A stretch of DNA of 64,000 bases, from positions 7,292,902 to 7,356,901 of the forward strand of contig NC_087076.1 of assembly GCF_026151205.1 (NCBI RefSeq). Direction: 5' to 3'. Position numbers and translations under genes: made by a program. The notes beneath the pieces were generated by a model that was not told the origin of the DNA, made no database searches, and saw only the letters and a program-made list of their open reading frames with translations. The stretch is from Bolinopsis microptera. Taxonomy: Eukaryota > Ctenophora > Tentaculata > Lobata > Bolinopsidae. Every line of letters begins with the position of its first letter. Position 1 is the first letter of the stretch. This document shows positions 23,747-35,731 of this stretch, piece after piece.

Positions 23747-25105
23747 TCATGTTGTAGGTCCTTCCTTTTCTTTTCTGTCACTCGGGGGGAACCTCCGCTT
23801 GTTCACTTTACTCAAGAATCTGGCAGTTTCTCTGATCAATAGGATATCCTTGAAGAGGTCGGCAAAGGTCTCCGCTCCAGAGGTGATCATGGTTCTCGCC
23901 TGCTGACCTATGTTTCGCCTCAGGTCGTCGTAAAGCGAACAATCCGTGAGAACGTGTTTCTCATCTTCAATGATCGGCTCAAACATTGGTAGTTCGGCCA
24001 GTATACCGACAGCTTCAAGGTCTGATGAAGAACAGTGCTTACAAATGCGACTGAGCGGATTTTCACGGTTGATGGCGTATCTACCGGTCTCGATGTTGAA
24101 CTTATGAGCACTCATTCTGAACTGCGCCAGCCGCTTCACCTCTTCTCCACTGAGCTGCAGGTTCAGGTACGCTTCAGCTGTAAATTCACTTTTGATAGTG
24201 TTGTAGAAACTGAGCTTCCGGTTGTTTTGCCGCTCATCGTTCCAACAGTTAATAAAAGTACTACGTAGTGCTGTTTTGAATTGGTTGGGGTAGGTCAACC
24301 TGCGAGATGATACTGACTGAAGGCTTTGTCGGAGATCTTCTATACCTTTGTACCATGGCAGATTGAGTGTGCGTTGTTCTATGAACGCCTGTCTGGCTAA
24401 ACTTGTGCAACCAGCTCTGTCCATTTGCTCAAGTCGGTTGAAATACCCAAATACTTGCTTTGATGCCTTTATCACTAGGGGGCAGCGGCCTGTATCACCC
24501 CATACACTCGCATTTGAGGTTTTTCTGCCCACTCCTAAGGTCCACTTGAGGAATGAGAGATGAAGCTTTTCGAGAGGATCTCTTGCAGTCTCCTTCAGGA
24601 GAGATTTGGTGTTGATATTATCTTGATAGTTTCTGACAAAGAGAGTCTCTGGGAGCCACACCTGACATCCGTATGTCACAATCGGTACCACAAGCGCGTC
24701 GAATAGCTTGAATACGATTGTTCGCCTGAAGTGTCTTAAGTCAATACTGCTTTTTAGCGCGAAGTAGCTTCTGAGACCTTTTTGCTTCAGTTTGTTCTGT
24801 GCTACTGCTGAAGAACCGTTGAGGGTAAAGGTTATCCCGAGGTAGCAATATTCTCGAACTGATGTGATGTTGGTTTCGCCGAGTTGGAATGTCAGACTCT
24901 CTTTAAGGAGCCTCCCGGAACGGTTGAACACCATCACTGCCGTTTTTCCGATGTTAACGGTTAGTCCCCATTCGATACAGTAACTGTGTAAAACGTTTAG
25001 AAGTTTCTGTAGTCCAGTATGGTCAAGGGCAAGAAGTATAAGATCATCAGCCCAGAGGAGATGAGTGATATTAACATTATTCAGTTCAGGGACGTTTCAA
25101 TGATT
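23747..25105 (-). pseudogene. 3' part of a non-LTR retrotransposon reverse transcriptase
   Basis: An open frame on the minus strand encodes the RT catalytic box with WADDL (about 25053-25067), then the NIGKTAVMVF segment, EYCYLGITF, VTYGCQVW and a C-terminal Cys/His cluster (C-x2-C, later H-x4-C). These are features of LINE-type ORF2 proteins from the second half of the RT domain onward. The endonuclease and the first RT motifs are missing: the frame closes upstream at a TGA only ~75 bp after the ORF1 stop. The copy is therefore internally deleted and cannot retrotranspose on its own. The clade (CR1/L2 or Jockey-like) was not assigned. Confidence 0.85.
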
Positions 25106-30405: not shown

Positions 30406-33400
30406 TTATTTAACGTTATTTTCAGTTGTGTTGATTCGTTTCCGGCTCGTCGACTCCTTAGTTCTCTTTTTAACACGCTTGACAGCCAAGGAGGTCGGAG
30501 TGCTTCCAAATATCATATCAAATATGTCATCCGATGATTGAGAAGTTATCAAACTCGGCGTTTTTATTCGCTTCTTTGCTTTGTCTTTTGAAAGAGTCGC
30601 TGCAGTATTTTTGGTGCCTCTAGATGACTTTGGTGTCGACGAACGGGAGATACAAACAGTTTCCACACATTCTATATTCGGAGACCGGCGAGTTTTCTTA
30701 GACTCTACAATAGGAGACTGACGAGTCTCCTTAGACTCAACAATAGGATACTGGCGAGTCTTCTTAGACTCTATCGTCAGAGACTGAAGAGTCTCCTCAG
30801 GTATGCTGGTATGGTGATGCGTATCGGATTCAGTTAAAATCTGTGCGTCTGATGAAAATAATTGCTCCTTAGAGACAATCACTTCTTTCTTAGTTTCTGG
30901 GGATAATGGTCGTTTCTTAATTTCTAGAACCGGCATGGTTTTGGGTGAAATCTTATCAACAGTCAGTTTCCAAGCGAGATCTCGAAGATGGCCTTCAGTA
31001 ACTTCGGTGTAATCATTTAAAAGGTTGATACTGTCACTGTACAGTGCCCTCGACACAGGCAAAGATTTGCCAATTTTCTTTGGTTTTTTGTTGTACGTTA
31101 TAGCATGGCATTTCTTGGTAATTTCAGATAGTTGTCGAAAATATTCATTTTTGCTCTCCTGAAAGTAACGAGTTTGTCGGACAGCCTCGGATTCGACAAT
31201 ATGGTCATTCTTGACTGTGATATCTGAACTACAGACCACTTTAGGAAGCAGTAATTCAATCCGGCTTTCAGCAAGGTCGTCCTCTGTTACTTTCTTCCTC
31301 TGTTTGAAAGTAGAAGAGTAGTAGTTAGTGCTCAGAGTGGAGCTGGAGGTGTTGAACGTTTCCCTGATATTTATAACCGTCGAGTTGAACATTTGGTTCA
31401 GAGCGTACTGCCCCCGGAGGTAGTCCCCTATTGGGCCAGCTTTCTCAGCCCCATCCTCCGACTCACTTTCAGTATCACTTACATAGAGGGTTTCAACTGA
31501 GTCAGGAGTTTCATTCAGCACTTCAACACAATCAGTAAAATCATCGATCTTGACTACTTCCCCAGGAAGTTGCGTTTCTCGAAACATTTCCTCATAAAGC
31601 GTGCTGACATTAGATTTGTGGTTATCCAACTCGACACCTCCTCCGTTCAAGATCACCTGTTCTTTTTCTGTTGTTGGACTTCCAATTCTAGAGGGGTAAG
31701 AAACCTTACCGTTAATGTAGACTGGGCTATTAGCGATTATTTCAATATCACAGCGGGGAAAAACAAACATAGGTGAGACTGTTGGGACAATAACTTGGTG
31801 GCTTACTTTTACAGAGGATTCGTCATCAATATCAGGGGACATTTCATCGCCCAAAGAAGACAGACCAACACAATCACTGAGCTTCACATACGACTGAACA
31901 GTGCCGTTGTGTTGACACTTAATGGGCGACGGTAACCAATCCAACTCTAAAGGTATGGGCGGTTCAATGTAGGGTGTCATATCTGAGGACCTATTCCCGA
32001 TGTAAGGCGTTACAAATAAATCCGGGGACCCGCTCCCATTAAAATAACAGTACGGTAACTCAGAAGATGGGTGGCTTTCCCTCGAGCTGTGATCATGATA
32101 TATAGCATGTTCCTGTAGATCCTCGCAGTTGACGTTGTGGATGGGTGTTGAACAAGATCTGCCTGGATACTGGCAGGGAGAGAAGATACTAGTTTCTGGA
32201 CTGTTGCCAGCTTCTTCGTCTGTACTTTGTCCTGTTACCACTCGGTACGATACAGCTTCTGTGTTTTCAAACTCTGACGTAATGGAAAACTCGGTCTGCT
32301 CTTCTTTGTTTTTCCTAAGCTTTACTTTAATCTTATCAGTATCTAGTTTTGAGGTGCTGGTGTTTTCAGTTTGCTCTGGGTTGGGCGGAGAGTTTACACT
32401 AGGCTTCTCTACTTTGGTCATTATAGGACATGCACTCTTGTAACACAGCGAAGCAAAAAATATCTCAATTTCCTTCATACAAGAATGGTCAGAGAATTTG
32501 ATGTATTCGTAAGATAAACAGTTCTGTCCTCGCCTCATGCCTGATATCTTAACAAAAACCACCTCTGAATGACAATGTTCCGCAGTGATACCAGCTATTG
32601 CCTTTTTGTAGTTAAACTTTGACTTGCAAACACAAAAGACCCTCCCGCCCTGCCGGTTAGTAGTGAAATGTTTTGAGAGTCCCATACACTTCACTAGCTG
32701 GTACTTATCTTCTGTAACCACCACTTCAACTCCCAGAGCTTCCGCCACATGGTTCAGAATGTCTTCTTTACCAATGTTGTCAAGAACGAAATACAGGACC
32801 TTGCTCTGACTCAACTGCGATCTACAAAAGTTGGTGGCGTTTTCTTTACATTCTGAGCGTGTCATGAACTTGGCTGCTTTCCTCGAGTACGTATTGTCGA
32901 AGTACACTGTGTCAATAACGAGATCCGACAGCGAGGAAGTCAGGCCGGGGTACCACCTGAAAGTTCAGTAATTAAATAATAAATATTTGAGAAAATAACG
33001 TTAAAAAACACTAGTTAGTTACTACTTAATTCTTTTTAATTCCAGGGACGACTACATAGGAACGTAGGGAATGGTAGGGGAAAATCTGTTAAGTATAATA
33101 GTCGAAGTTCAAGAAAATACAAACCTGAAGTTGCCGGTGTAAAGAATTCTCCCAAAGGTCCCCTCGAATAGAAACATGGCGGAGCCCATGCAGTGGTTGG
33201 AATCTAGCATGGTGACTGTGAAGGAGTCCTCTATTCGGGTTGGTATGTTATACTTCAGAACTATCGTCATGTTGTCTGGGATCTGACACGTGTGACTGAG
33301 TAGTTTCCCGGAAATGTCGGAGCAGTAGATTGGACGAGACCAGCCTTCTGACAGTCCAGGTGTTTGCTCACTGAAATTTTTACATGTTAATAAGCTATCC

Positions 33401-33717
33401 ACCTAGCAGCTCGACGCAAAAATAGCAAATGGTTGCAAAAACTTTTTTTCGGCGAAAATAATCACAAAAAAATAAGTTCATTGTTAATGTTGAAGAAGGT
33501 GAGCGGCTAAGGGCGTTACTAAGGGCGTTACTAAGGGCGTTACTAAGAACGCAACGATCGTCTGTGCTCACGTTTATCCGGTCACTTTTCAGTGTATAAG
33601 GTACCTGGTCACATGTGAACAGAAGTAGAAGTCCACGAGTTCAGTAGAGTCAGTTTCCCACCAATCCACAGCTATCTTTGTCTTCTCCAGCACATGACCC
33701 AAATTGGTAATAACCAT
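30406..33717 (-). CDS. DCLRE1B-like: Apollo/SNM1B-like metallo-beta-lactamase/beta-CASP protein, catalytic residues lost
   Basis: Exons 33605-33717, 33125-33370 and 30406-32956 join in phase 2 at both introns and give 969 residues. The N-terminal half follows the SNM1/Pso2 fold of the Apollo DNA 5' exonuclease, which protects telomere ends and repairs crosslinks. Landmarks are IAVDWW (Asp18), SH at 34-35, GLSEGWSRPIYCS, NHCMGS (His97), ILYTGNFR, VYFDNTY (Asp140, beta-CASP motif A) and FSDHS (His277, motif B). The HxHxDH signature reads H-V-T-S-E-Q, and the usual TGDFR Asp is Asn118, so four of the usual metal ligands are replaced. The reading frame is intact. The C-terminal ~600 residues are disordered, acidic, then basic, with three tandem ESKKTRQ-type repeats; no obvious Y/F-x-L-x-P TRF-binding motif was found. 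Probably a pseudonuclease or scaffold (inferred). Confidence 0.85.
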
Positions 33718-34274: not shown

Positions 34275-35314
34275 CTATGAGTGAAGTTTAATTCTATGCG
34301 ACCCTCCATTATCCTCAAATATTTCAAATTCAAGTCCTTGAACAGAGAAACAAGTTGTCCCAGATTTAACTGTTGGGGAGATAAGAACTCGACCGGGTAT
34401 CAGATCGCTCACACAGTTCTGATTTAACCCAGCGAGAGAAGCATTTGATGTTGCAAACACTACCCTACACTCCACACCGTATCTCTGATGTAAATAGTTG
34501 AGAGAGTTCTTCAGTATCATTATCGTCTGATAAATGTCCGGCAGATCACTGAAGTAGTGCTGAAGACTGTCTATTAGAACGAGGTCGGGACGTTGTGTCG
34601 GTAACTGTTCCACGATGAATTCTCTAAGTTCTTTCCTGGTGTGGAAATAATAGGTTTTGTAAATATGAGTTTTAAAGAAATTTTAACTATTCACGTATTC
34701 AATCCATCCGAATTTAAATCCCTAAACAGCCAAAGGCGTCCAATAAATTTACTTGATATTAATGAGAAAACATGAGATTAACCATAACAATTAAAAGTAA
34801 ATTAAAATCGTTCGCACTTTGATACAACTTCCATTATTCCAAAAATTCAACATAAAAATTAATCTTTTAGTGGTCATATTGCGGCAATATAGTGGCCGTG
34901 AATGGATTAACCTCTACTTAGAAACAGACATACTACCTGCTGGCGATGTAGTGAAAAGAAAGGTTTTTCAGCAGGACCGGATCCTCTGGGAGATCGAGGT
35001 GAGTTGCTGGCATCCGTTCCAACTTTTTCGGGCAAACAAAACAAACTTTCTTACTTCTCTTCGAGACTAATTCCTGAAAATATCTTATTTTCTATTCGGT
35101 ATTCCCGACAGCCACGTGGCTTTCAAGTAACCTGTCCCCAACAGGTGAACTTATCCCATATTTAATGTAAACCAGTGTTTTCTTAAATGGAGGTTTGACT
35201 TTAACGGATATAATTACTACTCACTTGCACAGCATGGTTGAAGAGAAGAGAAGTTTTCCCACAAGAAGAAGGGCCTTGTAGCAGAGTCAATGTGTCCTCT
35301 AACTGTATGTTCAT
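34275..35314 (-). CDS. SWSAP1: SWSAP1-like RecA/RAD51-type ATPase
   Basis: Exons 35225-35314, 34937-35073 and 34275-34635 (phases 0 and 2) give 195 residues; human SWSAP1 has 229. Exon 1 carries a Walker A motif (GPSSCGKTS, about residues 16-24). Exon 3 carries Walker B (PDLVLIDSLQHYF) in the same context as SWSAP1, followed by the short C-terminal core. SWSAP1 is a RAD51 paralogue that pairs with the SWIM-domain protein ZSWIM7/SWS1 to stabilise RAD51 filaments in homologous recombination. The start chosen is the ATG at 35312-35314, which follows a ttttatag acceptor-like sequence, so an upstream non-coding or short coding exon is possible. It lies just upstream of the Apollo-like gene on the same strand. 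Confidence 0.8.
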
Positions 35315-35731
35315 CTCTCCATCCTATAAAATAGACGGCCTTAAAAAGTTCTCAGAATATTCGACCTCAGTAAATCAAACTGAACGTTTTGAGTAATCGA
35401 GATTTGCTGCACCAGAACTAAAGGGTCGTAGAGACACGAAACTTCAACTAAAATTAACCTTTTCCTACCATTTATTTTAGATTAACACATCAACAAAGTC
35501 CTAAACACTAAAAAGTTTCATGGATTTGACCTGTTAAAGTTTATAGTGCACCAGAATTGATTTATTTTAAGGGTTTTTTAACTACTTGGTTTGATAATAA
35601 ATTAAATTCGATTTTTTAAACATTAAAATTATTATCAATATCACACAACAAACTGATTTTTCTTCTCAGCCAGTTCACAATGTCTTTTTGTTCTTCTTTA
35701 TTTCTTATAGTCAAGGATCTGAAGATATTCG

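Follow-up and report, generated by a model that had tools for sequence, protein, structure and literature searches.

A probable pseudonuclease of the SNM1B/Apollo lineage with a degraded metal site in the ctenophore Bolinopsis microptera

The only recognisable Apollo gene that we found in the genome of Bolinopsis microptera encodes a protein in which four of the six direct metal ligands of the nuclease have been replaced, and its reading frame is intact, so that the gene probably survives as a non-cutting protein. It lies on the minus strand at 30406-33717 of the 64-kb stretch of DNA that was analysed (the window). On weighing the evidence given below we lean towards a reading in which this single detected Apollo (SNM1B/DCLRE1B) orthologue has turned into a pseudonuclease, which would act as a non-catalytic adaptor binding DNA ends or protein partners. 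Pseudoenzymes are known among the RNA-processing MBL/β-CASP proteins (excerpts of PMC4819959), and an SNM1-family pseudonuclease is not described among the matches listed from the open-access literature. That literature likewise contained no report of Apollo or DCLRE1B in the ctenophores, a group recovered by some studies as the sister of the remaining animals (excerpts of PMC10232365).

Gene structure and relationship to Apollo

The gene consists of three exons, all on the minus strand, which together give 969 codons and one terminal stop. Exon 1 (33605-33717, 113 nt, start codon at 33717) encodes residues 1-37 and part of residue 38, and an ungapped alignment to human Apollo places in it D18 of motif 1 together with H35 and T37 of a degraded motif 2. 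A 234-bp intron (33371-33604, GT...AG) separates it from exon 2 (33125-33370, 246 nt), which holds E39 and Q40 of the same motif, H97 of motif 3 and the TGNFR with N118 that corresponds to a degraded motif 4. After a second GT...AG intron of 168 bp (32957-33124), exon 3 (30406-32956, 2551 nt) encodes the β-CASP region, the remaining MBL, a 667-residue tail and the stop codon, and by alignment it contributes D140, K183 and S275-D276-H277. The motifs of the predicted protein are thus HVTSEQ at residues 35-40, LDSNHC at 93-98, TGNFR at 116-120, YFDNT at 138-142 and FSDHS at 274-278. The earlier note had claimed an intact frame of 969 codons, and with clean GT-AG introns and a single terminal stop this claim stood.

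Two technical causes for the loss of the motifs were considered and rejected. None of 2,549 combinations of donor, acceptor and microexon around intron 1 (microexons of up to 120 nt) restored HxHxDH, which argues against mis-splicing and with it the alternative joining of exons 1 and 2 that the earlier note had raised as a possible rescue; moreover, H.H.DH was absent from the six-frame translation of the whole window. A sequencing slip or assembly error is unlikely because the changes span two exons, require several base substitutions and leave the frame unbroken.

Several lines of evidence support membership of the SNM1B/Apollo lineage, as the earlier note had proposed, and a closer relationship to Apollo than to SNM1A or Artemis. 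When residues 1-345 were compared with the PDB using phmmer, human SNM1B/Apollo was the best match (E 1.5e-39), followed by SNM1A (1.4e-23) and Artemis (1.8e-15), and the predicted MBL fold with its inserted β-CASP domain was matched along residues 7-301. Within that region the protein shares with human Apollo (DCLRE1B; 7b2x/5aho/7a1f) the Asp of motif 1, the His of motif 3, the Asp of motif A, part of the 5'-phosphate pocket and the FSDHS of motif B, in which D276 is the Apollo-type Asp where SNM1A has Glu. The tree joined the gene to human Apollo with support of 89/88, which is below the tool's starred level, on a very long terminal branch of 3.9 changes per column. Identity to human Apollo was 51/116 in the N-terminal half of the MBL and 26% past TGDFR. 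A Pfam search with the whole protein gave nothing above the cut-off, the DRMBL match being sub-threshold at E 0.4. The reverse search was not a clean best match, perhaps because the exons of the Bolinopsis gene are split: ranked by E-value, human Apollo found a one-exon Artemis-like gene (4.7e-21) and SNM1A (9.7e-19) ahead of exon 2 of our gene, which came third (8.4e-18), a rank that to that extent counts against our reading of the gene. Ranked by identity, exon 2 topped the long MBL matches with 49% across 94 positions of the query, and a short match on C2 reached 52% over 44 positions.

The metal site and the 5'-phosphate pocket

In human Apollo zinc 1 is held by H31, H33, H99 and D120 and zinc 2 by D35, H36 and D120, and D14, D145 and H276 sit in the second shell or contact the substrate (active-site passages of PMC4678830 and PMC8450094). 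The alignment is ungapped through HMHSDH, and the human H31-x-H33-x-D35-H36 reads H35-V-T37-S-E39-Q40 in the Bolinopsis protein, with the bridging D120 replaced by N118 as TGDFR becomes TGNFR; both replacements are those that the earlier note had read from the letters. The six positions of the direct ligands are therefore occupied by H35, T37, E39, Q40, H97 and N118, with four of them replaced (H to T, D to E, H to Q and D to N), and the protein has neither the motif 2 HxHxDH nor the motif 4 bridging Asp of an SNM1/Apollo 5' exonuclease. Both metal sites are affected, the first losing H33 and the bridging D120, the second losing H36 and D120 with D35 changed to Glu. Motifs 1, 3, A and B are kept, human D14, H99, D145 and H276 corresponding to D18, H97, D140 and H277. 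The earlier note had listed these four residues as retained zinc ligands; all are present, but only His97 is, like His35, a direct ligand, and Asp18, Asp140 and His277 correspond to the second-shell or substrate-contact residues (PMC4678830, same passages).

All six ligands were present in each of eight comparison sequences, namely human Apollo, SNM1A and Artemis, Bolinopsis SNM1A and four Bolinopsis Artemis-like genes, the last including two of the at least six copies of a cluster on C2. Across these eight, 35 columns were invariant (the same letter throughout, with at least seven letters present), and the Bolinopsis gene keeps 2/6 of the ligands and 24/29 of the other residues (Fisher p 0.027); the SNM1A row of the human protein is provisional in places, at columns after TGDFR only. 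Scored against Y182, K186, T257, S258, S274 and D275 of human Apollo, the 5'-phosphate pocket is partly preserved: S38, K183, S275, D276 and H277 are kept, whereas Y182 has become D179, T257 has become S258, S258 has become Gly (as in SNM1A) and R259 has become M260. Because of the changes to D179 and M260 the binding of 5' ends may be weakened too, which weighs against an adaptor that binds ends.

From established enzymology, no two-metal centre and no DNA cutting would be expected of a protein that lacks the bridging D120 as well as D35 and H36, and we strongly infer from the sequence that Bolinopsis Apollo no longer cuts DNA. The alternative that catalysis persists, at a site remodelled or reduced to one metal and made of H35, H97, E39 and N118, has some chemistry on its side, since Glu and Asn are chemically near the lost Asp ligands, H35, H97 and H277 remain, and one-metal structures of the SNM1 family exist, the sufficiency of a single metal being left undecided in the passages of PMC8450094 that bear on it. 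In principle H35, H97 and E39 could between them hold a single metal, and this is a point against the pseudonuclease reading. Nevertheless, D35A alone abolishes the activity of human Apollo (excerpts of PMC4678830), D35A and D35A/H36A are both nuclease-dead (excerpts of PMC8450094), the D736A mutant of SNM1A is catalytically inactive (excerpts of PMC7607226), and here the ligands have been lost from both metal sites, so we regard a surviving enzyme as unlikely.

Other SNM1-family genes and the maintenance of the frame

No second, catalytically intact Apollo, of the kind whose existence the earlier note had raised, was found by searching the genome (264,652,675 bases in 232 contigs, in which assembly gaps are possible) with the Bolinopsis protein, human Apollo, the DRMBL family and a motif pattern, which revealed only SNM1A and Artemis-like genes. 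The Bolinopsis protein matched 11 places (three in its own gene, one on C3, one on C6 and six on C2) and human Apollo 13 (two in the Bolinopsis Apollo gene, three on C3, one on C6, six on C2 and one at C5:1.895 Mb); of the three matches in SNM1A, two were weak, with E-values of 0.07 and 0.12. The DRMBL search returned seven places, and the Bolinopsis Apollo gene was not among these. A degenerate [LF][ST]HxH[ST]DH-type pattern, which is not exhaustive and misses members with an Ile-initial motif (C5:1.895 Mb and the HAHADH copies), occurred at nine places, six of them in SNM1A or Artemis-like genes, with four for the backward control; the matches on C8, C10 and C12 lay outside all SNM1-family matches and, given that control, were dropped as probable chance.

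SNM1A, a sister family with the same fold, is present at C3:7.57 Mb with intact HFHSDH, NHC and TGDFR; in contrast to it, the Bolinopsis Apollo gene has lost HxHxDH and TGDFR and is closer to human Apollo. Upstream of its nuclease domain, Bolinopsis SNM1A (L002:2280-3683, minus strand) has a tandem PIP-box-like stretch, TSQLDLGSMFGL / TSQLDLGAMFGL. TGDFR is also intact in an Artemis-like gene at C6:18.29 Mb, where it accompanies HCHTDH, and in the gene matched by human Apollo at C5:1.895 Mb, where it accompanies HAHTDH. The cluster of Artemis-like copies on C2, in both orientations (15754000-15783500), contains six HAHSDH or HAHADH sites at 15.756-15.781 Mb; some copies form uninterrupted reading frames 361-760 aa long and others are frame-broken, a lineage-specific expansion, and one copy of 691 aa reads TGDIR.

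Selection on the frame and fold of Bolinopsis Apollo is favoured by the conserved columns together with a neutral simulation, which would make neutral drift of the gene unlikely. The simulation started from the present sequence, with no indels, no selection and one rate everywhere, and by the time 4/6 ligand residues had changed the frame was open in 0/500 runs (median 26 stops, minimum 4), with 24 or more of the 29 non-ligand invariant residues kept in 18/500. The competing explanation is a young or slowly decaying pseudogene, in which function was lost, the active site drifted and the frame is open by chance or recency. The long terminal branch and the five changed positions among the 29 other invariant ones would fit such a history, and the branch also keeps relaxed constraint or early pseudogenisation in play against the adaptor reading. 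Asp to Asn does occur in decay, because a frame-broken Artemis-like piece of 33 aa on C2 reads TGNF. Against decay stand the simulated runs, the clean GT-AG introns and the roughly 51 stops that composition alone would lead one to expect in exon 3. Two other frame-broken C2 pieces show the opposite pattern, with short frames in which HAHADH and TGDFR or TGDF are still readable, although with very few pieces this contrast between motif kept and frame lost, and the reverse in the Apollo gene, is suggestive only. A pseudogene consequently seems improbable to us. The proposal in the earlier note that the gene is under selection for a non-enzymatic role is borne out in part, by the degraded metal site, the maintained frame and a pattern of loss that does not look neutral; of its two examples a repair scaffold may apply, whereas the telomeric one, taken up below, found no support.

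The C-terminal tail and the proposed role

The tail comprises residues 303-969 and the stop codon (30406-32409, minus strand, codon 303 starting at 32409), and at 667 aa it is much longer than the tail of about 200 residues in human Apollo, a protein of 532 aa (excerpts of PMC8450094). It had no match in the PDB at E<=1 and contains one in-frame tandem repeat (30680-30794, minus strand) of a 33-bp, 11-residue unit in 3.5 copies with 79% matches. A charge-hydropathy measure was negative in five of the six full 100-residue intervals from 301 to 900, residues 501-600 being positive and 901-969 falling outside the scoring. The tail is thus likely to be unstructured in most of the part scored, and the earlier description of an unstructured tail of about 600 residues with short tandem repeats holds roughly for its length and for a single array. 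Basic motifs of the K[KR]x[KR] type (6, with 0.8 expected by shuffling) and SP/TP sites (20, with 9.1 expected) are both in excess, SQ/TQ sites are not (2, with 4.7 expected), and PIP-box, APIM and TRFH-docking motifs were absent from the tail. Such a tail would be more in keeping with an adaptor that is nuclear and phosphorylated in the cell cycle than with one at telomeres.

In the mechanism that we propose, Bolinopsis Apollo would still fold but would lack the two-metal centre, and through the part of the 5'-phosphate and DNA-contact face that is kept (S38, K183, S275, D276 and H277) it may serve as a non-catalytic adaptor that binds ends or partners during the repair of forks or crosslinks. 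Phosphorylation may regulate the long, basic, SP/TP-rich tail, and the 5' exonuclease would come from SNM1A, a paralogue with intact motifs. A FANCD2 gene was also found in the genome. Human Apollo, however, reportedly needs its nucleolytic activity to bring FANCD2 and BRCA1 to stalled forks (excerpts of PMC5564657), which counts against a simple nuclease-free fork role. A more specific version, in which ctenophores carry out end resection and crosslink repair with a non-cutting Apollo that uses what is left of the phosphate pocket to bind 5'-phosphorylated ends, protecting these or handing them over to SNM1A, is one that we offer as a tentative and somewhat doubtful suggestion. In that version the protein would be a DNA-repair counterpart of CPSF100 beside CPSF73.

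The dead protein might instead be a partner that regulates a live paralogue, SNM1A or an Artemis-like enzyme. For this there is precedent within the superfamily (excerpts of PMC4819959), in which CPSF100/CPSF2 and INTS9 keep the fold with an inactive active site, and there are paralogues with intact motifs in the genome; self-association of Apollo by co-immunoprecipitation is also tabulated in PMC5564657. CPSF100 and INTS9 are nonetheless RNA-processing partners of dedicated active twins, CPSF73 and INTS11, whereas the Bolinopsis gene is a member of the SNM1 branch, which acts in DNA repair, and SNM1 heterodimers are unreported in the portions of the literature that we examined. We therefore think such a partnership quite improbable.

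Human Apollo serves shelterin as an accessory factor (excerpts of PMC5564657), and the earlier note had suggested a telomere scaffold. The TRF2 TRFH-docking motif, of the form [YF]xLxP, occurs in the tail in neither a strict nor a relaxed version. Searches of the genome for TRF (PF08558) gave no match, the controls being equally without match, and for POT1 a best E of 0.53 with a stop inside. Five tandem copies of TTAGGG gave 1,932 and 1,756 overlapping matches; among the matches listed the arrays were on C1 only, at 0.68-24.3 Mb of 26.2 Mb, and interstitial examples lie at 2450484-2450646 and 12190025-12190174. No array was found in nine 1.5-kb contig-end stretches (five contigs, without the far end of C1), each of which held at most two hexamers. 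A scaffold recruited to telomeres by a TRF protein is accordingly very improbable, the shelterin connection and the presence of TTAGGG arrays in the genome being outweighed by the missing docking motif, by arrays that, among the matches listed, lie inside C1 and not at the contig ends covered, and by the implication, in the relevant passages of PMC10497418, that Apollo-TRF2 binding evolved after animals arose.

If Bolinopsis Apollo is a maintained pseudonuclease, a non-cutting activity of Apollo must suffice to keep the gene, and the ctenophore protein would be a natural separation-of-function allele. It would also suggest that an animal can rely on SNM1A by itself for the 5' exonuclease work.

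Elsewhere in the genome, a glutamate receptor had as its best PDB match the Mnemiopsis receptor ML032222a (5cmb, 5cmc and 4yki), with kainate receptors of vertebrates following at no great distance. Three other features of the window, all on the minus strand, deserve mention. The same-strand neighbour at 34275-35323, some 560 bp upstream of where Apollo starts, consists of pieces in which GPSSCGKTSL reads as a Walker A motif and LVLIDS as a Walker B-like one, with AAA-type Pfam matches that were sub-threshold only. We take it to resemble the RAD51-like SWSAP1, and two repair genes may thus sit head to tail. At 23747-25096 there is a reverse-transcriptase-like open frame of 449 aa (LLWADDLILLA) with, by eye, the look of a non-LTR retrotransposon, and an open frame at 2351-2983 contains two matches to PAN domains (PF14295, E 1.3e-14).
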